A stretch of 7,186 nt of DNA from the NCBI GenBank assembly GCA_024643945.1, contig JAHELX010000318.1, forward strand, positions 1 through 7,186, given 5' to 3'. How positions within the stretch are numbered: the first letter of the stretch is position 1; every line of letters starts with the position of its first letter. A program made the position numbers and the translations under genes. Below the pieces are notes generated by a model that ran no database searches, was not told the origin of the DNA, and was given only the letters and a program-made list of their open reading frames with translations. Below are positions 1 through 7,186 of the stretch, one piece after another. This stretch comes from Anaerolineales bacterium. GTDB lineage: Bacteria > Chloroflexota > Anaerolineae > 4572-78 > NAK82.

Positions 1-60
1 GCCTCCTCAGTCATCGCAGCCTCTGTTGGTGCTTCCTCAGTTGGCGCGGCTTCTGTCGGT
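1..60. repeat. 30-bp imperfect tandem repeat in the lipoprotein linker
   Basis: Positions 1-30 and 31-60 are two 30-bp units that match at 23 of 30 positions, and a further partial unit begins at 61. They encode the decapeptide repeat of the lipoprotein linker. Most of the differences are third-position changes, so the peptide pattern is kept while the DNA has drifted. The array may continue to the left of the window. Confidence 0.6.
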
Positions 61-191
61 GCTTCTGCAACCGGGGTCGCTGCGGCTGGCGCTTGCTCCT
101 GGCCCGAGGGGGCACAACTGGCAATGCCTGCGACCAGCAGCATCAAAATGGCCATAAGCGTCAGTGCTTTAAGAATTCTGTTGTTAAGCAT
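1..191 (-). CDS. Lipoprotein N-terminus, probable ABC-transporter substrate-binding protein (partial)
   Basis: Only the first 63 codons are in the window; the gene continues past the left edge. The protein starts MLNNRILKALTLMAILMLL: a short positive n-region, a hydrophobic segment of about 15 residues, then the lipobox IASC with the lipidated cysteine at residue 26. This predicts a secreted, membrane-anchored lipoprotein. After it comes a flexible linker of Ala, Pro, Thr and Glu with a decapeptide repeat (APTEAAPTEE, then APTEAAMTEE). Such linkers are common in Chloroflexota solute-binding lipoproteins, which is why a substrate-binding role is proposed; the folded domain is not visible, so another lipoprotein type remains possible. 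The ATG has a strong Shine-Dalgarno (AGGAGGAGG) a few bases upstream. It follows the aminotransferase on the same strand after a 125-bp gap, so it could be the last visible gene of the cluster or have its own promoter. Confidence 0.75.
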   Translation of the reverse strand, partial: MLNNRILKALTLMAILMLLVAGIASCAPSGQEQAPAAATPVAEAPTEAAPTEEAPTEAAMTEE

Positions 192-316
192 GATCCTCCT
201 CCTCTTCGTGGCAGGATGGCTCTCGCGGAAAACTAGCCATTGCACCTAATTCACTCTTTGGTTGTCGAGATGTATGTGGCATCACCCCCTTTCTTACAGT
301 TGGACACAACAGGCTT
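192..316 (-). other. Intergenic region between aminotransferase and lipoprotein genes
   Basis: This 125-bp gap has no gene. On the minus strand it holds the lipoprotein Shine-Dalgarno (195-203) and a small hairpin, with arms 216-221 and 235-240 (ATGGCT/AGCCAT) and a 13-base loop. No run of T follows the hairpin, so it is not a convincing intrinsic terminator. A very weak promoter-like pair on the minus strand (TCGACA at 263-268 and TGCAAT at 239-244, 18-bp spacer) could serve the lipoprotein gene, but the match is poor. Whether the lipoprotein is co-transcribed with the upstream cluster cannot be decided from this sequence. Confidence 0.4.
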
Positions 317-1687
317 TCAGGCAGTTCCCAGACCGTACTTGCGAGAGGTCTCGGCGATGGCCTCTTCGACGATGTCGCAAGCCATAGCGAAGGTGTTCTG
401 AGGCATGTTCAGCGCCGGGTAGAGGCGCAGCCACCACAGTCCCTCTTCGTGGACTGGCAGCAGCCCACGTCGAATGCACTCAAAGTGGATCTCCCGTGTC
501 AACTCTTGGGCCGGCTCCTTAGATATCTTGTCTTTGACGAATTCGAGAGCGATGTACAGTCCTTTGATTCGTACATCGCCGACAAGCTGGTATCTGGACG
601 CGAGCGGTCCCAGCCTGTCCATAGCGAATCGTTCCAGGTCTGCGACATGGTCAAGGACGTGGTCGCGCTCCATGACTTCGATGCCCTTGAGTGCTCCGGC
701 ACAGGCTGCCGGGTGCCAGGCAAACGTGCCGCCCAGGTAAAGCTCTGAGTCGGCAAGCAATTCTTCGCTGCCTAAGACGGCGCCGATGGGGAGCGCGCCG
801 CCCGAAAGCGCCTTAGCCAGGGGCATACTATCTGGCTCCACATCCCAGTGCTCCATGCAGAACATTTTGCCAGTCCGGCCAAATCCGGTCTGCACTTCGT
901 CGGCGCAGAGATACCAGCCGTACTTGTCGCACAGGACACGCAGCCGTGGAAAATAATCGTCAGGAGGGATGATGACACCCGCCTCTCCCTCGACGGGTTC
1001 AATCAACACGCCCGCAATCTGATCGGCGGTGGTTTCGTAGCGCAGAATGATGTTCTCGATATAATCCAGGCACCACAGATTGCAGTCAGGATAGGTCAGT
1101 TTGAAGGGGCAGCGGTAGCAGTAAGGATAAGGGGCATAGATGTAGCCCACCATAAACTGCTTGATACCGCGCGTAATACCTGGCTCCAGCGGACCGGCCG
1201 CGCCGGTGCCGTAGTTGCCGCCGTGGAACCCGCCGTAGAAGCTGATGACGAAAGGCCGGCCCGAGGCCTCACGCATCAAGCGTACGGCCGACTCGACGGC
1301 CTCAGTACCTGTCGTATCGGGTGCCACGCGGGTCAACCGCCCGGGAGAGATGGCGACAAGCTTTTCGGCCAGTGGGAAGAGATGGGTAAAGGTTACATAG
1401 TCGGTGCACTCGATGCCCGACTCCCAGAGGGCGTCAATGGTCGCCTGGGTTACCTCCTCGTGCGCAGCACCCAGCAGGGTCGAGGCCCAGCCGGTGACCG
1501 TGTCTATGAATCGGTTGCCGTCCACGTCCTCCAGTATCCAGCCCTTTTTGCGCCGCACGATGAACGGCACGTCCTTGTCGGCATACCATCCTTTGGAGAA
1601 GAGTTTCTTTTCTCGCTCCAGGTAAAGACGGCTATTAGGACCGGGTGGCAACACAATCACTTGTGGGGTGCTCCACCTGCTATGCAT
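317..1687 (-). CDS. Class-III PLP-dependent aminotransferase (456 aa)
   Basis: This is a fold-type I, class-III (omega-type) aminotransferase, the family of 4-aminobutyrate, acetylornithine and similar transaminases; it is expected in the cytoplasm. The whole family signature is present: TGTEAVE (126-132) for phosphate binding, GGFHGG in the following loop, LIEPVEGEAG (228-237), DEVQTGFGRTG with the pyridine-binding Asp263, the Schiff-base lysine Lys292 in MPLAKALSGG, and GGTFAWHP with Thr321. A four-cysteine insert, CYRC then CNLWC (Cys190, 193, 202, 206), marks a subtype. The ATG at 1687 is chosen because GGAGG lies 9 bases upstream. The longer reading frame starts at a TTG at 1732 and would add 15 unremarkable residues. 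The gene lies 129 bp downstream of the corrinoid gene on the same strand, so it probably handles the amine or amino acid released by demethylation. The exact amino donor cannot be read from the sequence. Confidence 0.92.
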   Translation of the reverse strand: MHSRWSTPQVIVLPPGPNSRLYLEREKKLFSKGWYADKDVPFIVRRKKGWILEDVDGNRFIDTVTGWASTLLGAAHEEVTQATIDALWESGIECTDYVTFTHLFPLAEKLVAISPGRLTRVAPDTTGTEAVESAVRLMREASGRPFVISFYGGFHGGNYGTGAAGPLEPGITRGIKQFMVGYIYAPYPYCYRCPFKLTYPDCNLWCLDYIENIILRYETTADQIAGVLIEPVEGEAGVIIPPDDYFPRLRVLCDKYGWYLCADEVQTGFGRTGKMFCMEHWDVEPDSMPLAKALSGGALPIGAVLGSEELLADSELYLGGTFAWHPAACAGALKGIEVMERDHVLDHVADLERFAMDRLGPLASRYQLVGDVRIKGLYIALEFVKDKISKEPAQELTREIHFECIRRGLLPVHEEGLWWLRLYPALNMPQNTFAMACDIVEEAIAETSRKYGLGTA

Positions 1688-1696
1688 TGTGGGCTT

Positions 1697-1701
1697 CCTC
1701 C
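1697..1701 (-). promoter_or_regulatory. Ribosome binding site deciding the aminotransferase start
   Basis: On the minus strand GGAGG, within the longer purine tract GGGGAGGAAG (1694-1703), lies 9 bases before the ATG at 1685-1687. It supports this start over the upstream in-frame TTG at 1730-1732. Confidence 0.65.
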
Positions 1702-1766
1702 CCTCTCTCGTGGCCTTTCTCTGGCTGGTCAACGCACAAGGCCTGTCCTCGGGTCGAATTCAAGCC

Positions 1767-1794
1767 AAAACCACCCCGGGTGCATACGGGTTTT
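1767..1794 (-). other. Intergenic hairpin between corrinoid and aminotransferase genes
   Basis: Arms AAAACC (1767-1772) and GGTTTT (1789-1794) form a 6-bp outer stem. Inside it is an alternative short palindrome, CACCCCGGGTG (1772-1782). On the transcript strand the inner hairpin is followed by a short GTTTTGG, which is too weak for a clear terminator. It might limit read-through or mark a processing point; this is inference. Confidence 0.3.
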
Positions 1795-1816
1795 CTTCTC
1801 CCATCAGGTGTTCAGG

Positions 1817-2473
1817 CTATGCCGGGGCACCGACGAGCCTCTTGGCGAGAGCGACCGCAGCGATGGCATCTTCAGCATAACCATGGGCGCCGATCTTCTC
1901 GGCCCAGCTCGGGGTGATTGGCGCGCCGCCGACCATCACCTTCACCTGGTCGCCGAGCCCTGCCTCTTTGAGTTCCTCAATGATCTTTTGCTGCTCCGGC
2001 ATGGTCGTCGTCAGCAGTGCCGACGCTCCGATCAACGTCGCCTTCTTCTCCTTGGCCGCGGCAACAAAATCGGCTGCCGACTTATCAACGCCGATGTCAA
2101 TGACCAGAAAGCCGTGAGCGGTGAGCATGGTCCCCACCAGTGTCTTGCCAATCTCATGCAAATCGCCCTTCACCGTTCCGAGCACCACCCGGCCCAGCAC
2201 CTCCCGCTCCTGGTTCCTGGCCAGGGCTGGTTCCAAGATGGCCAGAGCCGCCTTCATGGCTTCGCCCCCTATAATCAGATCGGGCAGGAAGTACTCCCCG
2301 GACGAAAACATCTCGCCAACACGATTGATGCCCGGAGTGAGTCCCTCATTGATGCAGGCTAGAGGATCGAGGCCCTGATCTAGCGCCTGCCTGGCCAGTT
2401 CCGCCGCTTCCTCTGGCTCACCGTCTATCACCGTCTGGGCCAATTTGCTGAAGATCTCTTCCTTTGATGACAT
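1817..2473 (-). CDS. Corrinoid (B12-binding) methyltransferase partner protein, MtgC/MttC-like (218 aa)
   Basis: This small cytoplasmic protein carries a cobalamin cofactor that takes a methyl group from the MttB-type enzyme and passes it to a second methyltransferase. Residues 1-85 form the helical cap domain (GEMFSSGEYFLPDLI around 53-67). Residues 90-215 form the Rossmann-like B12 domain with the DxHxxG motif DLHEIG (104-109), where His106 is the lower cobalt ligand, plus SALLTTTM (151-158) and the VGG loop (181-183). The size is usual for the MtgC/MttC/MtbC group. The start is the ATG at 2473, with AAGGAGG 5 bases upstream. A longer frame begins at 2575, inside the end of methyltransferase B as ATGCCTGA, but its extra 34 residues look unstructured and cover an intergenic hairpin. 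It lies directly downstream of two MttB-family genes and is probably shared by both. Confidence 0.95.
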   Translation of the reverse strand: MSSKEEIFSKLAQTVIDGEPEEAAELARQALDQGLDPLACINEGLTPGINRVGEMFSSGEYFLPDLIIGGEAMKAALAILEPALARNQEREVLGRVVLGTVKGDLHEIGKTLVGTMLTAHGFLVIDIGVDKSAADFVAAAKEKKATLIGASALLTTTMPEQQKIIEELKEAGLGDQVKVMVGGAPITPSWAEKIGAHGYAEDAIAAVALAKRLVGAPA

Positions 2474-2478
2474 CGCGT

Positions 2479-2485
2479 CCTCCTT
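2479..2485 (-). promoter_or_regulatory. Strong ribosome binding site of the corrinoid gene
   Basis: AAGGAGG on the minus strand lies 5 bases before the ATG at 2471-2473. It is a near-perfect Shine-Dalgarno and decides the 218-residue start over the upstream ATG at 2575. Confidence 0.75.
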
Positions 2486-2523
2486 ATGGGTTTGTCTTTT
2501 GATTCCTGTTGACCGCTGGAATT

Positions 2524-2561
2524 GTGGGGCAGCCTTTCTAGGCTGCTCAGGCAGGCCCCAC
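2524..2561 (-). other. Intercistronic hairpin between methyltransferase B and corrinoid genes
   Basis: Outer arms GTGGGGC (2524-2530) and GCCCCAC (2555-2561) pair perfectly over 7 bp. Inside, AGCC (2531-2534) and GGCT (2541-2544) extend the helix around a 6-base loop, with a 10-base bulge on one side; alternatively, GCAGCC and GGCTGC pair over 6 bp. No T-run follows on the transcript strand, so this is not an ordinary terminator. A likely role is to protect or separate the downstream message so that the corrinoid protein is made in a different amount from the enzyme. Confidence 0.5.
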
Positions 2562-2567
2562 GATTTC

Positions 2568-4019
2568 TCAGGCATTCAGCTCCCGCCCTGCAACATCCAG
2601 AATAGCCCGTAATTCGGCCCTGACTGCCTCATCCAGGGGTTGGGGTTCGTGCTCTGCCAGGATCCGGTCCAGCCTGGCCCTCGCCCTGCGTCGAATATCG
2701 GGCACAACCGTTCCGTCAAGTGAGGACCTGGGATGGCTCAGTCCTGGAATCCATATGTCCCGCACGTGCCGCCGCGTGTGCTGTTGGGCCAGGAAATGGC
2801 CGCCGGGGCCAACGGCTGCAGTCACATCCAATGCCAGGCCTTCAGCGCTGGTGTCTACCCCCTCGGCCAGGACGCGATGCGTGTGGTAGATCTCGTCATC
2901 GAAGATGATCTGTTCCGGCACCAGCAGGGTGGAGGCCCGGAGCATGCCTCCCCCGGTGACTATTTCGGCGCCGGCCAGGGGGACCATCAGCGTCGTATAG
3001 ACGCTATCCCGGCCCAGTTGCCAGGTGGCCGGCTCGGAACTATCCATGCCGAACGCGCCTGCCAGTGTCGGGACGCCCCAATCGTGAGCCATTTGCACCG
3101 CTGCTGTGTTGCACAGGTATTTCTGGGGGATGCTGACGATATAGTCAGCGGAGCGAGGGTCCATCAATGAAGCGAGGAGCGAGTGAAACACCGGGGCGCC
3201 AGGGGCAACCAGTTGCATCAATACCATAGCACTGACCACCTCGGCGTTGCCCACCACCAGAGCGCCGCCGGGCGTCGCCGGCGCCGTGGACCCCAGGGTC
3301 GGCATGGCCATAAAGCCCACCGGAATCCCCGCCTCGGCATATACCATCCCGGCTTCAATCCCCTCCTTGTCCTGCGCCAGGGGGGCAATGGTGCAGATCA
3401 AAACGGAGAAGGGAGGCCGAGCCCGCATCTTCTGTCTGTCACCGGCAATCACCTCCCCCATACGCACTGCGTACTGCGCCGGTTTTTCCCCCATGACGGT
3501 CTCGGTCTGCACGTGCTTGACCGTGTTATTGAAACTGGCATCCAGCTCGTGCAGGGGGGCCAGTCGCCCGTAATCCTGGGCACTGACCATCGGCCAGTAG
3601 AAGGCAACCGACGAGAGATAGTCCGCCACCCGCGCCATCCTGGCCACGTCTTCCTTGCAAGAGGGGCGTTGCTTCCCTGTCTCGAAATCAACGGTCAGCG
3701 TCCCGCAGCCATCGGTCCCAAAATAGGTGCTCGTGCCATCGAGAACCAGATCGCCCCCCTCAGCCCGCCCAGACAGCAGGTAGGAACGCGGCGCGTGGCT
3801 CATCGCCTCTGTCACCAATTCCGGTGGTAATCTCACGATCTGACTATCCAGGTCCACCCGGGCCCCGTGTTCGGCAAACACCGCCAGGGCCTTCTCGGAG
3901 GGAAACCTCACTCCAACCTGCTCCAGGAGGTGCAGCGTGGCCGACTTGATTGCCTGAAGTTGATCGGCACTCAATACCTGCAGATGAAACTTGGGCTGAA
4001 TCGGCTTGATATCAGGCAT
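2568..4019 (-). CDS. MttB-family (trimethylamine methyltransferase superfamily) protein B, non-pyrrolysine (483 aa)
   Basis: The MttB superfamily are TIM-barrel enzymes that transfer methyl from methylated amines to a corrinoid protein. Pyrrolysine-free members include glycine betaine (MtgB), carnitine (MtcB), proline betaine (MtpB) and gamma-butyrobetaine (MtyB) methyltransferases. Family features here are the N-terminal helix with LLEQVGVRFPSE (31-42), GTDGCGTLTVDFETGKQRPS (101-120), GIPVGFMAMPTLGSTAPAT (231-249) and the C-terminal GHFLAQQHTRRHVRDIW (407-423). There is no internal stop, so no pyrrolysine. Where paralogue A has SSDAKELDAQAGFEK, B has DSSEPATWQLGRDSV (326-340), which implies a different substrate or role. 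It starts at an ATG preceded by AGGGAGG and lies 20 bp after the end of A, so the two are almost certainly co-transcribed. The precise substrate is unknown. Confidence 0.9.
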   Translation of the reverse strand: MPDIKPIQPKFHLQVLSADQLQAIKSATLHLLEQVGVRFPSEKALAVFAEHGARVDLDSQIVRLPPELVTEAMSHAPRSYLLSGRAEGGDLVLDGTSTYFGTDGCGTLTVDFETGKQRPSCKEDVARMARVADYLSSVAFYWPMVSAQDYGRLAPLHELDASFNNTVKHVQTETVMGEKPAQYAVRMGEVIAGDRQKMRARPPFSVLICTIAPLAQDKEGIEAGMVYAEAGIPVGFMAMPTLGSTAPATPGGALVVGNAEVVSAMVLMQLVAPGAPVFHSLLASLMDPRSADYIVSIPQKYLCNTAAVQMAHDWGVPTLAGAFGMDSSEPATWQLGRDSVYTTLMVPLAGAEIVTGGGMLRASTLLVPEQIIFDDEIYHTHRVLAEGVDTSAEGLALDVTAAVGPGGHFLAQQHTRRHVRDIWIPGLSHPRSSLDGTVVPDIRRRARARLDRILAEHEPQPLDEAVRAELRAILDVAGRELNA

Positions 4020-4022
4020 GAT

Positions 4023-4029
4023 CCTCCCT
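4023..4029 (-). promoter_or_regulatory. Ribosome binding site of methyltransferase B
   Basis: AGGGAGG on the minus strand lies in the 20-bp gap after the stop of methyltransferase A. It is 3 bases from the ATG at its near end and 6 bases if the AGGG part pairs. It shows that B has its own initiation signal within the operon. Confidence 0.6.
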
Positions 4030-4039
4030 CTGAATTATG

Positions 4040-5476
4040 CTACCGTGGCTCGAAGTGAAAGTCTGACCCTGCGTAGCGGCGCACGATGTGCTCCAGTTCC
4101 GCCTCGACCCTGGCGGGCAGGGGCGGCGGATGGTGCTGAGCCAGGATATCCTGGGCTTTGCGGCGGCAGACTTGTTCGATGGTCTCGTTCTTCTCGTGCC
4201 ACGTCTCGTAGGCATCGCGGCTCAGGATGCCGGGCTGCCAGTGCTCGCGAAAGGTACGCCGGGTGTGTTTTGCTTTCAGGAAATTGCCGCGGGGGGTGTT
4301 GGCCTTGATGAGGGCCACCTCCTCGTCGAGATCGTGCAAGGTGATGCCCTGCATCATCCGTCGCAGCCCGGCGATAAACTCGTCGTCCATGATCATCTGC
4401 ACGTACGAGATAGTGGAACCGGCGTCGGTCGCGCCGACGCCGTAAATGATGTTGGCTCCTTCCAGCAGCAGGGGGACCGCGGTGACTGCCTTTTCAAAAC
4501 CAGCCTGAGCGTCCAGTTCCTTGGCATCGGACGAAAGTCCGCCGCACATAGAGAGCATTCCATAGTAACGCGCCATCAAGGCAGCCCCGCTGTTGACCAT
4601 CCCCCGCTCCGGCGCGCCCAGGGGCAACAACCCGGTGCGCATATCGAGCACCGCCGACACGCTGCCGTATAATAAGGGCAGGCCGGGGTAGAGGATCTGC
4701 AGGGCAGCGATCCAGGCCAGAATGTCGGCGTTGATCACGACCAACTCGCCCAGGAGCGTGGCCGGCGCCGAGGCGCCCCCCATCGCCATGCTGAGCAGGG
4801 TGATAGGGACACCGTGCTCGGCCCAACGCAACATGCAGCGCACGTTCTCCGGGGTAAAATAGCCTGGGCTGATGGGACAATACAGCGTGGCGAAGTTGGG
4901 GTGAGTACGGAAGGCTTCTTCACCTCCAGCGACGGCAGCCAGCATCTCTACGGCCGCGTCCACCCGCTCCGAGGATAGGGTGCGGTGAACCACCGGCTTG
5001 CTGGTACAGCGCAGCAACTCGGCGATTTCGACCAGGTCTGAACAATCGCCCTGGTCGGTGGCAGTGACGGTGGGGCGGACGATGTCCACCTGTGGTAGCG
5101 CATCCTGCAGAAGCACCAGATCACGCACGTCCTGCCGGGTGGCGGGCCGCCGCATCCCGGTCTGCAGGTCAAACACATTAACCGGCGTGCCGGCACCCAT
5201 AAAGCAGGGGCCGCGCTCAGGCGTACCAAGAGGTGCCGGTGTTTCTCCGGTCCGGGTGTAGAGCTTCACGTCGTGGGGCAGGTGAGCCATAGCTGTTTCC
5301 AGCAGTTCCGGTGTCACTCGAACCATTTGTGACTGCTGATCGACCGGGAAACCGGCGGCTTCGAGGCGGGCCAAGACGCTCGGTTCGGGCACACAGAACC
5401 CCACTTCGCTCAGGATCTCGACCGATTTTTCGTGAACCAGCTCAGCGATAGAATCAGGCAGACGGTTGGTTAACAT
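4040..5476 (-). CDS. MttB-family (trimethylamine methyltransferase superfamily) protein A, non-pyrrolysine (478 aa)
   Basis: A full-length MttB-superfamily methyltransferase, expected to demethylate a quaternary or tertiary amine and load the methyl on the downstream corrinoid protein. Recognisable blocks are the N-terminal helix HEKSVEILSEVGFCVPEP, FMGAGTPVNVFDLQTGMRRP (about 92-111), HGVPITLLSMAMGGASAPAT (about 221-240), SSDAKELDAQAGFEK (315-329), the glycine-rich GANIIYGVGATDAGSTIS, and the C-terminal GNFLKAKHTRRTFREHWQP. It has the classical DAK motif seen in many pyrrolysine-free homologues. It ends with TAG used as a true stop and has no in-frame internal TAG. The ATG at 5476 is preferred; a GTG two codons upstream (5482) is the alternative. 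Neither has a clear Shine-Dalgarno, unlike the other cluster genes. It is the first enzyme gene after lrp. Confidence 0.92.
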   Translation of the reverse strand: MLTNRLPDSIAELVHEKSVEILSEVGFCVPEPSVLARLEAAGFPVDQQSQMVRVTPELLETAMAHLPHDVKLYTRTGETPAPLGTPERGPCFMGAGTPVNVFDLQTGMRRPATRQDVRDLVLLQDALPQVDIVRPTVTATDQGDCSDLVEIAELLRCTSKPVVHRTLSSERVDAAVEMLAAVAGGEEAFRTHPNFATLYCPISPGYFTPENVRCMLRWAEHGVPITLLSMAMGGASAPATLLGELVVINADILAWIAALQILYPGLPLLYGSVSAVLDMRTGLLPLGAPERGMVNSGAALMARYYGMLSMCGGLSSDAKELDAQAGFEKAVTAVPLLLEGANIIYGVGATDAGSTISYVQMIMDDEFIAGLRRMMQGITLHDLDEEVALIKANTPRGNFLKAKHTRRTFREHWQPGILSRDAYETWHEKNETIEQVCRRKAQDILAQHHPPPLPARVEAELEHIVRRYAGSDFHFEPR

Positions 5477-5482
5477 TGCCAC

Positions 5483-5685
5483 TCAATTGTGCCAACTTAC
5501 TGGTCGGTTTGGCTAGTACCCCATCAAACGTGATCTGAAGACTGGAAACAGACGCCATGGGGGTCAGAATTGCCCGTCAAATCAGCCTTGACGGGGCACC
5601 AGGTACCCCAGCAAACGTGATCTGAAGACTAGAAACAGACGCCATGGGGGTCAGAATTGCCCGTCAAATCAGCCTTGACGGGGCA
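5483..5685. other. lrp-methyltransferase A intergenic region
   Basis: This 203-bp gap has no gene. Most of it (5516-5685) is the 87-bp tandem repeat. The remaining bases just before methyltransferase A (5483-5515) show no convincing promoter or Shine-Dalgarno on the minus strand. If methyltransferase A has its own promoter it must lie inside or overlap the repeats; otherwise the operon is read through from the lrp promoter. Confidence 0.6.
5516..5602. repeat. 87-bp tandem repeat, copy 1
   Basis: This unit begins with GTACCCCA and is followed directly by a second copy. The two copies differ at only 3 positions (5524 T/G, 5544 G/A, 5600 C/T against 5611, 5631, 5687). Inside, CCCGTCAA (5573-5580) and TTGACGGG (5588-5595) form a perfect 8-bp stem with the 7-base loop ATCAGCC. 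With one bulged base the stem extends by the flanking GC and TG. The unit also contains CCATGG and the oppositely oriented ACCCC and GGGGT tracts, so more pairing is possible. No open reading frame or T-run accompanies it. Confidence 0.92.
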
Positions 5686-5689
5686 CTAG
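5603..5689. repeat. 87-bp tandem repeat, copy 2, containing the lrp stop codon
   Basis: This is the second unit of the tandem pair, followed by the first five bases of a third (GTACC at 5690-5694). Its hairpin arms are at 5660-5667 and 5675-5682. The lrp stop codon TAG (5686-5688 on the minus strand) lies at its right edge, so in the lrp transcript the hairpin starts immediately after translation ends. The GTACC boundary occurs at all three unit junctions, as expected of a duplication by slippage or unequal exchange that started at the end of lrp. Confidence 0.92.
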
Positions 5690-6189
5690 GTACCTGCCTC
5701 CCGGCTTTGCAAGTCGATGCGGAATCTGTGATCCGTTCGAGGCGACTCTGCCTCACCCCAGCGGTAGGATAGTTTGTACATTTTGAGGATCATAAACGTT
5801 TCGGTCCGCTGCACTCCCGGAACTAACTGCAACTTCTGATTGAGGAAAGAGACAAAATGATCCATGTCTCTGCAATAGACTTCGACGAACAGGTCGAACC
5901 CGCCGGAGGCCATAAAAAGGTAGCTAACCTCGGGGAACTGGGCGATCTGTTGAGCCACGGCATCGACCTTTCCTGCCTGGACGGTAACTCCGATCATCCC
6001 GGCTGCATTCCAGCCCAGGAACTGGGGCTCTACAATGCCGACGATTTGCAGCACTCCGCTATCAATCAGCCGCCGAACGCGATGGCGTACAGACCCTTCG
6101 GAGATGCCTAACTCGGCAGCGATGTCGGTGTATGGTGTCCGTCCGTCGTACTGGAGGCGGGTGATAATGGCTCGATCGATTTTATCCAT
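5686..6189 (-). CDS. Lrp/AsnC-family transcriptional regulator (167 aa)
   Basis: A DNA-binding feast/famine regulator. The N-terminal winged helix-turn-helix covers about residues 1-50 (IDRAIITRLQYDGR, then DIAAELGISEGSVRHRVRRL). The C-terminal RAM ligand-binding domain covers about 62-140, with GGFDLFVEVYCRD (96-108) and VPGVQRTETFMILK (123-136). A polar tail of about 20 residues (147-167) goes beyond the usual family end. The start is the ATG at 6187-6189, preceded by a weak AAAGGG. The upstream promoter carries palindromes, so autoregulation is likely. It is first in a row of same-strand genes for methyl transfer and transamination, so it probably controls them in response to an amino acid or methylated amine; the ligand is not identifiable from sequence. 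Confidence 0.93.
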   Translation of the reverse strand: MDKIDRAIITRLQYDGRTPYTDIAAELGISEGSVRHRVRRLIDSGVLQIVGIVEPQFLGWNAAGMIGVTVQAGKVDAVAQQIAQFPEVSYLFMASGGFDLFVEVYCRDMDHFVSFLNQKLQLVPGVQRTETFMILKMYKLSYRWGEAESPRTDHRFRIDLQSREAGT

Positions 6190-6237
6190 GCGCCCTTTTC
6201 CGCTTGCCTTCTTCTCGCCCTCTGCTTATCCTAGACT

Positions 6238-6266
6238 ATATTATCAGATTTCGTAAGATAAGTCAA
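6238..6266 (-). promoter_or_regulatory. Promoter of lrp (sigma70-like)
   Basis: On the minus strand the -35 box is TTGACT (6261-6266), then a 17-bp spacer, then the -10 box TAATAT (6238-6243). GATAAT two bases earlier is an alternative -10 with a 15-bp spacer. The predicted start near 6231 leaves a leader of about 42 bases before the lrp ATG. A TTTCGTAA half-site (6249-6256) lies inside the spacer, where a bound regulator would block RNA polymerase. Confidence 0.65.
6249..6256. promoter_or_regulatory. Putative Lrp operator half-site (site 1)
   Basis: TTTCGTAA matches the right arm of the palindrome at 6303-6319. Its left arm is degenerate (3 of 7 matches). The implied centre, 6249, is 32 bp from the centre of the next site. 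It sits in the spacer of the lrp promoter. Confidence 0.45.
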
Positions 6267-6271
6267 GGCTT

Positions 6272-6290
6272 TTCAACGAAATTCGTTGAA
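6272..6290. promoter_or_regulatory. Putative Lrp operator palindrome (site 2)
   Basis: TTCAACGAAATTCGTTGAA is a perfect inverted repeat with 9-bp arms around one central base (6281). It lies directly upstream of the lrp -35 box. The core ACGAA-N-TTCGT is shared with site 3. Lrp/AsnC proteins typically bind such short palindromes as dimers. Confidence 0.65.
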
Positions 6291-6302
6291 TTTTGCGTTA
6301 TT

Positions 6303-6319
6303 TTTACGAATTTCGTAAA
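6303..6319. promoter_or_regulatory. Putative Lrp operator palindrome (site 3)
   Basis: TTTACGAATTTCGTAAA is a perfect inverted repeat with 8-bp arms around a central T (6311). Its centre is 30 bp from that of site 2, about three helical turns, so both sites face the same side of the DNA. It lies between lrp and the divergent acetyltransferase gene. Confidence 0.65.
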
Positions 6320-6391
6320 TCTGAAATGACAATCCAAGGACAAGATGACTTTACACAACGGTTGCGCAGTAGGCCCAAGCGGTTACCGGCT

Positions 6392-6418
6392 TTGATTTTG
6401 TAGGTGTTTTGATATAAT
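6392..6418 (+). promoter_or_regulatory. Putative promoter of the GNAT gene
   Basis: A perfect -10 hexamer TATAAT (6413-6418) lies 48 bases before the acetyltransferase ATG. The best -35 is TTGATT (6392-6397) with a short 15-bp spacer, so the -35 call is less sure than the -10. The operator sites near lrp are more than 70 bp upstream of this promoter. Confidence 0.5.
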
Positions 6419-6466
6419 GAGGGCAATAACAAGTTGCGTCCAGGGTCGAAACCGTCGGGGGCTATT

Positions 6467-7186
6467 ATGAACATCCGTCCTATGATATCATCTGATCTGG
6501 AATTTGCGGCGACGCTAACTGCCAATGAAGGTTGGTTGAGCGAGACAAAGGAAGACTTTGAGGGCTTTCTGCTGTACGACCCGAACGGTTGCTTCGTAGC
6601 CGAGGAGAATGGAGATCGTATCGGGATGTGTGTGGCGACTGCCTATGGAGAGTCCGGCTTCCTGGGCGAACTCATTGTCCGCAAGGACATGCGGGGACGT
6701 GGGATAGGAACGCGGCTCATGCAGCACGCCCTTGCCTACCTCAGCCACCGGGGTGTACGGAGCATTTACCTGGATGGGGTGGAAAGCGCGATTCCCCTCT
6801 ATGAGAGGCTTGGGTTTCGGAAGGTCTGCCGATCCCTTAGATTCTCGGGGAGGGTGCGCGCCGCTCGTTATTCGGGGGTCCGGGCCATGACCCCTGCACA
6901 CCTGGCTGTAGTCGCCGAAATGGATCGGGGGGCATTCGGGGCGGATCGCTCTTTCTTTTTGCAGCGATGGCTGTCCTTGCATCCCCATCTTTGTAAAGTG
7001 CTTGAGTTGGAGGGACGGATTAGGGGCTTCGTCACGGGCCGGGCGAGGGCTGACCTGATTTCCGTTGGCCCCTGGGTCGTTCAATCACACGTGGCACGCC
7101 CTGGCCAACTGCTGGAAACGCTCGCGGCCGAAGGAGAGGGCTTCAACCTCGCCGTTGGTGTCCTCGAAGCGAACTCGCATGCGGTG
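6467..7186 (+). CDS. GNAT-family N-acetyltransferase, two-domain (partial, first 240 aa)
   Basis: The frame is open from the ATG at 6467 to the right edge, 240 codons, with no stop; the gene is truncated by the window. The N-terminal GNAT domain (about 1-125) has the acetyl-CoA binding motif A, VRKDMRGRGIGTRLM (71-85), with the RGRGIG pyrophosphate loop, and the late motif LYERLGFRKV (111-120). A second part (about 138-240) resembles the extra C-terminal acetyltransferase-like domain of YitH-type proteins, with GFVTGRARADLISVGPW (187-203). It would acetylate an amine-bearing small molecule or a protein; the substrate is unknown. The start has only a weak GGGGGC upstream. It is divergent from lrp and may or may not share its control. 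Codons and motifs support this strand; the open frame on the opposite strand (6515-7084) shows no family motif. Confidence 0.88.
   Translation, partial: MNIRPMISSDLEFAATLTANEGWLSETKEDFEGFLLYDPNGCFVAEENGDRIGMCVATAYGESGFLGELIVRKDMRGRGIGTRLMQHALAYLSHRGVRSIYLDGVESAIPLYERLGFRKVCRSLRFSGRVRAARYSGVRAMTPAHLAVVAEMDRGAFGADRSFFLQRWLSLHPHLCKVLELEGRIRGFVTGRARADLISVGPWVVQSHVARPGQLLETLAAEGEGFNLAVGVLEANSHAV

Follow-up and report, generated by a model that had tools for sequence, protein, structure and literature searches.

Can the removal of methyl groups from an amine and the transamination of the product be joined in one anaerobic operon? The question is raised by a stretch of 7,186 nucleotides from an Anaerolineales bacterium of the phylum Chloroflexota (assembly GCA_024643945.1, contig JAHELX010000318.1, positions 1 to 7,186), which was analysed as a whole and which we call the window. 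Behind a gene for an Lrp/AsnC-type regulator it carries two MttB-family methyltransferase genes (A and B), one corrinoid-protein gene and one gene for a class-III aminotransferase (AT). An initial annotation had described two full-length, clearly different MttB-family genes separated by 20 bp, followed on the same strand by one B12 protein and the AT, and open reading frames (ORFs) and Pfam matches agree with it on each of these points.

We propose that the window represents most of an Lrp-controlled operon for the anaerobic use of an N-methylated compound, which would be imported, demethylated and then transaminated, a reading that we place a little below an even chance. The substrate would enter through a family-5 ATP-binding cassette (ABC) transporter, a type predicted for the window from its relatives. 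A, with its paralogue B, would pass methyl groups to the Co(I) form of a single corrinoid protein, which the two may share; an MtgA-type protein encoded elsewhere would hand these groups to tetrahydrofolate (THF), and a RamA-type ATPase, likewise encoded elsewhere, would maintain the corrinoid in its reduced form. The AT would transaminate the demethylated amine, and the carbon skeleton would become usable too. All of these enzyme activities, including the action of the AT on the demethylated product, are predicted from sequence; demethylation followed by transamination is a plausible succession. Our guess at the substrate class is omega-amino-acid betaines or polyamine-like compounds, less likely glycine betaine; examples might be gamma-butyrobetaine (giving gamma-aminobutyric acid), delta-valerobetaine and N-epsilon-trimethyllysine (giving lysine).

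The MttB-family enzymes and their corrinoid protein

The identity between A and B is 30% over 457 alignment columns, and each is about 30% identical, over its full length, to the pyrrolysine (Pyl)-containing MttB and to MtgB. Full-length PF06253 matches without a Pyl codon place both in the non-pyrrolysine branch of the MttB superfamily (COG5598/PF06253). Neither has the in-frame TAG of the trimethylamine enzyme, and both fall short of the Pyl-MttB model TIGR02369 (391.9 bits for A and 361.8 for B, against a curated cut-off of 525). The position aligned to Pyl334 of MttB is Ser317 in A (TCG, codon 4534-4532) and Gly324 in B, and neither ORF is interrupted by a stop, so the label ‘pyrrolysine-free’ was well chosen. 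A motif search of the window and 20 loci of relatives (loci are numbered L, genomes G) gave 16 copies of A, 14 of them distinct once duplicates were removed (L030 equals L003 and L052 equals L006), all with TCN at the Pyl334 position; L010, L013 and L016 were not picked up by the motif pattern. Family membership likewise supports the proposal of corrinoid-dependent demethylation without pyrrolysine.

The Rfam model PYLIS_3 matches inside A (4435-4534, minus strand, 58.6 bits), beginning exactly at the Ser317 codon, and inside A in five of the eight relative loci searched (L001, L002, L004, L012 and L013); it matches at no B gene. We do not take it as evidence of pyrrolysine: the match opens with the codon TCG where the model has UAG, and it reads as coding homology. 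Elsewhere in relatives' genomes (G001, G004, G005, G006, G007 and G233), some PF06253 matches do contain one in-frame stop (TGA, TAA or TAG).

The two paralogues differ in what they keep of known active sites. The MttB residues Gly110, Thr111, Met249, Tyr364 and Gly372, named in the available text of PMC9842639, correspond in A to G98-T99, M232, Y347 and G355, and all 17 rows of the A alignment have them; in B, only the equivalents of Gly110 and Met249 are retained. For MtgB, docking led to proposed glycine-betaine contacts at Y94, N199, R309 and H345 (the accessible part of PMC6855144, whose numbering is one lower than that of the PDB alignment, the letters agreeing once shifted). These positions are T, C, M and Y in A and C, C, L and T in B, and the name mtgB is therefore not supported for either gene. 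Genes annotated as mttB or mtgB were already known in Anaerolineae, as the excerpted text of PMC11264602 states. In a tree of 39 rows the A genes (10 rows) and the operon B genes (7 rows) are each monophyletic, with support of 100/100 in both cases. Their placement relative to MtgB and Pyl-MttB is unsure because the branches are long. AlphaFold models of A and B, built on shallow alignments of 17 and 15 rows, reached a mean predicted local distance difference test (pLDDT) score of 58.9 and 38.4, respectively.

The corrinoid protein carries the sequence DLHEIG, which we take to be the axial-histidine motif. It matches MttC of the solved MttB-MttC complex (7xcn) with an E-value of 3e-54, and lies below the NCBIfam cut-offs of TIGR02370 (212.2 against 215.3 bits) and MtgC (227.7 against 310). 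The row formed by A, B and the corrinoid gene provides the combination of a substrate methyltransferase with its cognate corrinoid protein, and the three would presumably work together.

Conservation of the proposed operon and its helper functions

A scan of genome contigs with the A alignment gave 18 loci, from which L017 and L018 were dropped as matching over short stretches only; the 16 kept, several on short contigs, include L016, in which A is truncated. The 12 relatives compared below were chosen for carrying A (the genomes of L001-L004, L006, L008-L010, L012, L013, L015 and L016). An Lrp-like ORF lies 5' of A in 13 of the 16 loci (matching over just 58 residues in L005); none precedes A in L001 or L007, and L011 shows only 192 bases there. 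The corrinoid gene follows A in 11 loci. Of the other five, L016 has no corrinoid gene, and the contigs of L003, L005, L011 and L014 stop inside A or no more than 1.8 kb from it.

Between A and the corrinoid gene, B is present in five of these 11 loci (L001, L002, L004, L010 and L015), twice in L002 and together with a flavoprotein-like gene and an AT in L001, and in another five there is nothing (L006, L008, L009, L012 and L013, with other MttB genes further down in L012 and L013). In L007 the interval holds a polysaccharide-deacetylase-family gene (2518-3318). Since A and the corrinoid gene stand without an intervening B in six of 11 loci, A would seem to be the core of the system, with B extending it to a further methylation state or a further substrate. 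A family-5 binding-protein gene comes directly 3' of the corrinoid gene in seven of the 11 (assigned to SBP_bac_5 by Pfam in L002 and L013, and by BLAST to these two in the others), with DppB-like genes next in five of the seven; in L012 an MttB gene comes after the corrinoid gene, and the sequences of L001, L006 and L007 break off. Judged from gene order, the conserved unit is Lrp, A, the corrinoid protein and a predicted family-5 ABC transporter.

The exact block of A, B, corrinoid gene and AT proposed at the outset is not conserved, given the six loci without B in its place and the absence of an AT from its place in all seven loci where the transporter gene is visible. The pairing of two MttB paralogues with one corrinoid gene fared better. 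When the 120 best homologues of A are set against the 120 best of B, 17 contigs of equal size appear, where 1.7 are expected, and the source agrees for 15; A and B therefore travel together in metagenomes too, and each is monophyletic. A itself occurs in at least three of 298 sampled genomes of the class (a lower bound, with up to five candidates scored per genome). At family level it was met in one of four genomes around G233 and in three of 38 around G002, on contigs which, by their equal lengths, are already represented by L003, L015, L006 and L010.

A fuller version of the operon is seen in L013 (6106-21425) together with L086 (279-8066). After the L013 transporter come three more MttB genes, a DAO-family flavin adenine dinucleotide (FAD) enzyme, a saccharopine-dehydrogenase-like gene and ATPase-like genes, which we would read as transporter ATPases. 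The FAD enzyme is only distantly like pipecolate and sarcosine oxidases. We did not accept lysine catabolism as proven, since the saccharopine-dehydrogenase-like genes have weak matches to carboxynorspermidine-type models.

A second methyltransferase and a reductive activator are not in the window. The initial annotation advised looking for a RamA-type activator and an MtgA-type methyltransferase elsewhere in the genome; in relatives, both families are represented: RACo_C_ter (RamA/AcsV type) is present in nine of ten relatives' genomes (G003 has none) and Pterin_bind, a broad family, in all ten. MttB genes occur in all 12 A-bearing genomes, with 2 to 22 matches each, and AcsB (acetyl-CoA synthase) in seven of the 12. 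In L013, an activator-like and an MtgA-type gene are divergent from the Lrp gene and adjoin the row of Lrp, A, corrinoid and transporter genes. The MtgA-type gene scores 300.7 bits with PRK07535, above the cut-off of 259, and the activator-like gene 277.9 bits with AcsV and 122 with RamA, both below the cut-off. Neighbouring RACo_C_ter and Pterin_bind genes were also found in G001, G002 and G005, beside the AcsB gene; we rejected these pairs as dedicated to the operon, as they adjoin acetyl-CoA synthase and probably serve it.

The aminotransferase and competing readings

PF00202 identifies the product of the fourth gene as a class-III aminotransferase. Its best NCBIfam model, PRK05769, gives 349.9 bits against a cut-off of 552; no substrate-specific equivalog cut-off is reached, and no substrate can be named. 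What ties such enzymes to MttB genes is proximity. Of the 86 class-III ATs in the 12 A-bearing genomes, 12 have an MttB gene no more than 3 kb away, where random placement would give 1.69; among 99 class-I/II ATs, one is so placed (Fisher p 7e-4), in a test with rounded genome sizes and many fragmented genomes. This supports the general link between class-III ATs and MttB but not the window's own type of AT as a conserved partner. We compared 19 ATs (the window's, ten of the 12 MttB neighbours, one that lies 3.7 kb from an MttB gene and seven from three of the eight MttB-free clusters). At 45% identity they form seven groups, five of which contain MttB neighbours.

The genes around these pairs point to omega-amino acids, polyamine-like compounds or carnitine-like betaines, with no single substrate suggested. 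L099 has a methylmalonate-semialdehyde-type aldehyde dehydrogenase (over its cut-off) and a sarcosine-oxidase/GcvT-type flavoprotein, L093 an acyl-CoA ligase, and L094 a 3-hydroxyacyl-CoA-dehydrogenase-type gene and a CoA-transferase. In L097 (5634-17450), MttB-family genes are interleaved with agmatine-deiminase-like (247 bits), N-carbamoylputrescine-amidase-like (324 bits) and saccharopine-dehydrogenase-like genes and an aminotransferase; the first two scores are below the cut-off, and catabolism of N-methylated guanidino compounds or polyamines is a possible role for this cluster. L095 contains an MtmB-family gene (12524-13891; PF05369, 305 bits, full-length open frame) and a similar-looking ORF (13944-15371), near an MttB-like gene, a corrinoid gene and two aminotransferases. 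The first and, by its look, the second are non-pyrrolysine MtmB homologues on a Chloroflexota chromosome.

For the window's AT, homologues of 62-65% identity occur in at least eight of 396 genomes of the class (up to four candidates scored per genome). Their clusters hold binding-protein and permease genes, an ornithine-cyclodeaminase-family gene, further ATs and saccharopine-dehydrogenase-like genes; the transporters have a spermidine/putrescine look, for which Pfam gives only SBP_bac_8 and BPD_transp_1. When contig sizes were compared for the 22 best clusters (at least 73%, P0241-P0262, two fragments left out), one size, 17,628, was shared with an A homologue and another, 29,734, with a B homologue. 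These equal sizes suggest two metagenome contigs on which the AT may stand with A or B.

Several observations weigh against a demethylation operon that ends in transamination. The window's type of AT is found in none of the 16 A loci, and the one locus with an AT in the operon (L001) has a member of another subfamily, 36% identical. In the comparison of 19 ATs, the window's enzyme falls in a sixth group with ATs of MttB-free clusters, where none of the ten compared MttB neighbours is found. The 4-20 kb fetched around the homologues of 62-65% contain no MttB or corrinoid gene. The 12 genomes of the proximity test were picked for carrying A, one of the 12 AT-MttB pairs is L001, itself found through A, and two of the ATs are a tandem pair. 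Simulation expects 0.46 coincidences of contig size for the AT over all sizes, with two or more in 8% of runs; an expectation of 0.005 holds for contigs above 10 kb, which include both shared ones, with the cut chosen afterwards. The best PDB match of the AT is a racemase, and the MtgB contacts used for comparison come from docking. In addition, gaps of 94, 129 and 125 bases 3' of B, the corrinoid gene and the AT (compared with 20 between A and B) leave co-transcription unproven.

The main rival we hold to be possible but doubtful. In it, A (and B), the corrinoid protein and the transporter would form a betaine-demethylation operon, and the AT would be an unrelated enzyme of amino-acid or polyamine metabolism that landed beside the transporter. 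The seven loci that show a transporter gene and a core without an AT speak for it, as do the AT relatives in clusters with transporter, ornithine-cyclodeaminase and AT genes and no MttB in the fetched flanks. It sits less easily with an AT on the same strand, between the corrinoid and lipoprotein genes, with the excess of class-III over class-I/II ATs near MttB and with the two further contigs suggested by equal size.

The class-III enzyme could also be an amino-acid racemase rather than a transaminase, its substrate being the enantiomer of an amino acid that has been demethylated or co-imported. Of its three best PDB matches, two are amino-acid racemases sharing its fold family (an alanine/serine racemase at 246 bits and, third, a broad-specificity racemase), but the second, a hypothetical 4-aminobutyrate aminotransferase, has a nearly equal score of 240 bits, and PRK05769 is an aminotransferase family, though its cut-off is missed; we find a racemase improbable. 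To our knowledge, class-III ATs have omega-amine substrates, not glycine, which counts against a plain glycine betaine system with A as the equivalent of MtgB. This last alternative, to which we give little credence, draws on the full-length identity of about 30% to MtgB, on MtgC as the best NCBIfam model of the corrinoid protein (below cut-off) and on the name mtgB given to Chloroflexi MttB homologues (PMC6081815, in the text available), but neither A nor B keeps any of the four proposed betaine contacts, A is as similar to Pyl-MttB and keeps the active-site set of that enzyme, and the transporter seen in relatives is of the family-5 ABC type, where the betaine cluster of strain DCMF has BCCT transporters (PMC9768040, available text).

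The operon that demethylates and then transaminates remains our preferred reading of the window. We regard a broader version of it as rather unlikely: Anaerolineae would, more than once, have brought MttB-type demethylases together with class-III ATs, whose subfamilies, not counting the window's own, number five or more. It would amount to a general anaerobic route for N-methylated omega-amino acids or polyamine-like compounds, in which methyl groups would go to the Wood-Ljungdahl pathway and the skeleton would be used; the window would be one such module, A and B removing successive methyl groups.

Gene layout, regulation and known systems

The window's genes are real and intact (table 1); near full-length domain matches and many close homologues argue against chance ORFs. 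The ORF of A is listed from GTG 5482, with ATG 5476 the likelier start, and the ATG of the corrinoid gene (2473) sits behind GGAGG. The AT ORF is listed from TTG 1732; ATG 1687 is likelier because the best homologues mostly have 456 residues. The lipoprotein start (1-191), which the initial annotation overlooked, begins with an ATG at 191 and has no Pfam or NCBIfam match, and from its position it is probably the binding protein of the family-5 ABC transporter. The plus strand carries, divergent from the operon, a gene (6434-7186) that runs off the window and whose product has two domains of the GNAT acetyltransferase type (PF00583 and PF18014).

Table 1. Features of the window, with positions, strand and supporting matches.
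Feature	Position	Strand	Evidence
Lrp/AsnC regulator gene	6189-5686	minus	PF13404 + PF01037 (Pfam)
MttB-family methyltransferase A	5476-4040	minus	PF06253, E 4e-75, profile 37-494 of 500
MttB-family methyltransferase B	4019-2568	minus	PF06253, E 3e-66, profile 30-491 of 500
Corrinoid (B12) protein, 218 residues	2473-1817	minus	PF02607 + PF02310
Class-III pyridoxal-phosphate aminotransferase (AT)	1687-317	minus	PF00202, E 4e-84
Lipoprotein N-terminus, ~60 residues	191-1, runs off window	minus	signal + lipobox-like sequence
Promoter-like site and operator-like palindromes 5' of Lrp gene	6238-6317	minus	pattern matches, palindromes
87-base tandem duplication in Lrp-A gap	5516-5694	.	Tandem Repeats Finder, 2.1 copies, 96%

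The region 5' of the Lrp gene contains the perfect palindromes TTTACGAAATTCGTAAA and TTCAACGAATTTCGTTGAA and two perfect palindromic WACGAAWTTCGW sites; two perfect palindromes there centre on ACGAAWTTCG. A promoter-like TTGACT-17-TAATAT lies at 6266-6238 (two such matches in the window against 2.5 expected), and its spacer matches ACGAAWTTCG at 8/10 positions. In ten of the 12 relatives the motif, at 7/10 or better, lies between -35- and -10-like hexamers 5' of the Lrp gene, with scores of 9 or 10 in seven; the two exceptions are L015, with a score of 6, and L008, which yielded no pair of hexamers. Shuffled stretches of equal size reach 7/10 in 9.5% of cases and 8/10 in 1.2%, figures to be read with the motif derived from the same sequences that were scored and the start codons of L003 and L008 set by hand. 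Applied to the window, the relatives' spacer scan chose other hexamers, around a perfect ACGAAWTTCG site. We infer that the motif is an autoregulatory Lrp operator, and the regulator is probably local and autoregulatory. Each copy of the tandem duplication between the Lrp gene and A carries the inverted repeat CCCGTCAA/TTGACGGG.

The core is a known kind of system, and the attached transaminase is its unusual part. MtgABC of Desulfitobacterium hafniense (MtgB, PDB 2qne/9yce) also combines a non-pyrrolysine MttB-family enzyme with an MtgC-like corrinoid protein. The window differs from it in its two MttB paralogues, the Lrp gene, the AT in the row and (by its relatives) the family-5 transporter; the proposed betaine contacts of MtgB are not kept, and MtgA and RamA are not in the window. 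In Eubacterium limosum, MtpB, MtcB and MtyB are several MttB paralogues that feed one corrinoid protein, MtqC, and THF, and are therefore a precedent for a carrier shared by A and B; there each paralogue has its own quaternary amine, and the available text of PMC8604678 mentions no aminotransferase. The Pyl-dependent MttB-MttC trimethylamine system (7xcl/7xcn; PMC9842639, in part) is homologous over the full length and shares with A the active-site set given above, but differs in Pyl334 itself and in the residues that B lacks.

The glycine betaine cluster of strain DCMF likewise combines a single MtgA with several corrinoid proteins and substrate methyltransferases, and stepwise demethylation of glycine betaine to sarcosine was proposed for it (accessible text of PMC9768040). 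The earlier statement that described systems stop after one demethylation was therefore too strong. DCMF differs in that sarcosine is cleaved reductively, and the same portion of text describes no transaminase route. Titles and abstracts, with few subscription journals covered, revealed no MttB-aminotransferase module, nor the combination of paired MttB genes with Lrp, transporter and class-III AT genes; PMC9999580 and PMC9723716, in the text available, contain both MttB and aminotransferase, for separate things. The parts are known, and their combination is a variant of known three-component methyltransferase systems.

Thousands of proteins belong to the MttB superfamily, and most have no assigned substrate according to the available part of PMC8604678. 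Two MttB genes, a transaminase and a probably dedicated transporter offer a direct way to new substrates. In particular, the module lets one ask whether a quaternary amine can be stripped to a primary amine by bacteria without pyrrolysine. It also bears on the use, by uncultured Chloroflexota, of methylated nitrogen compounds, some of which would otherwise be precursors of methane.

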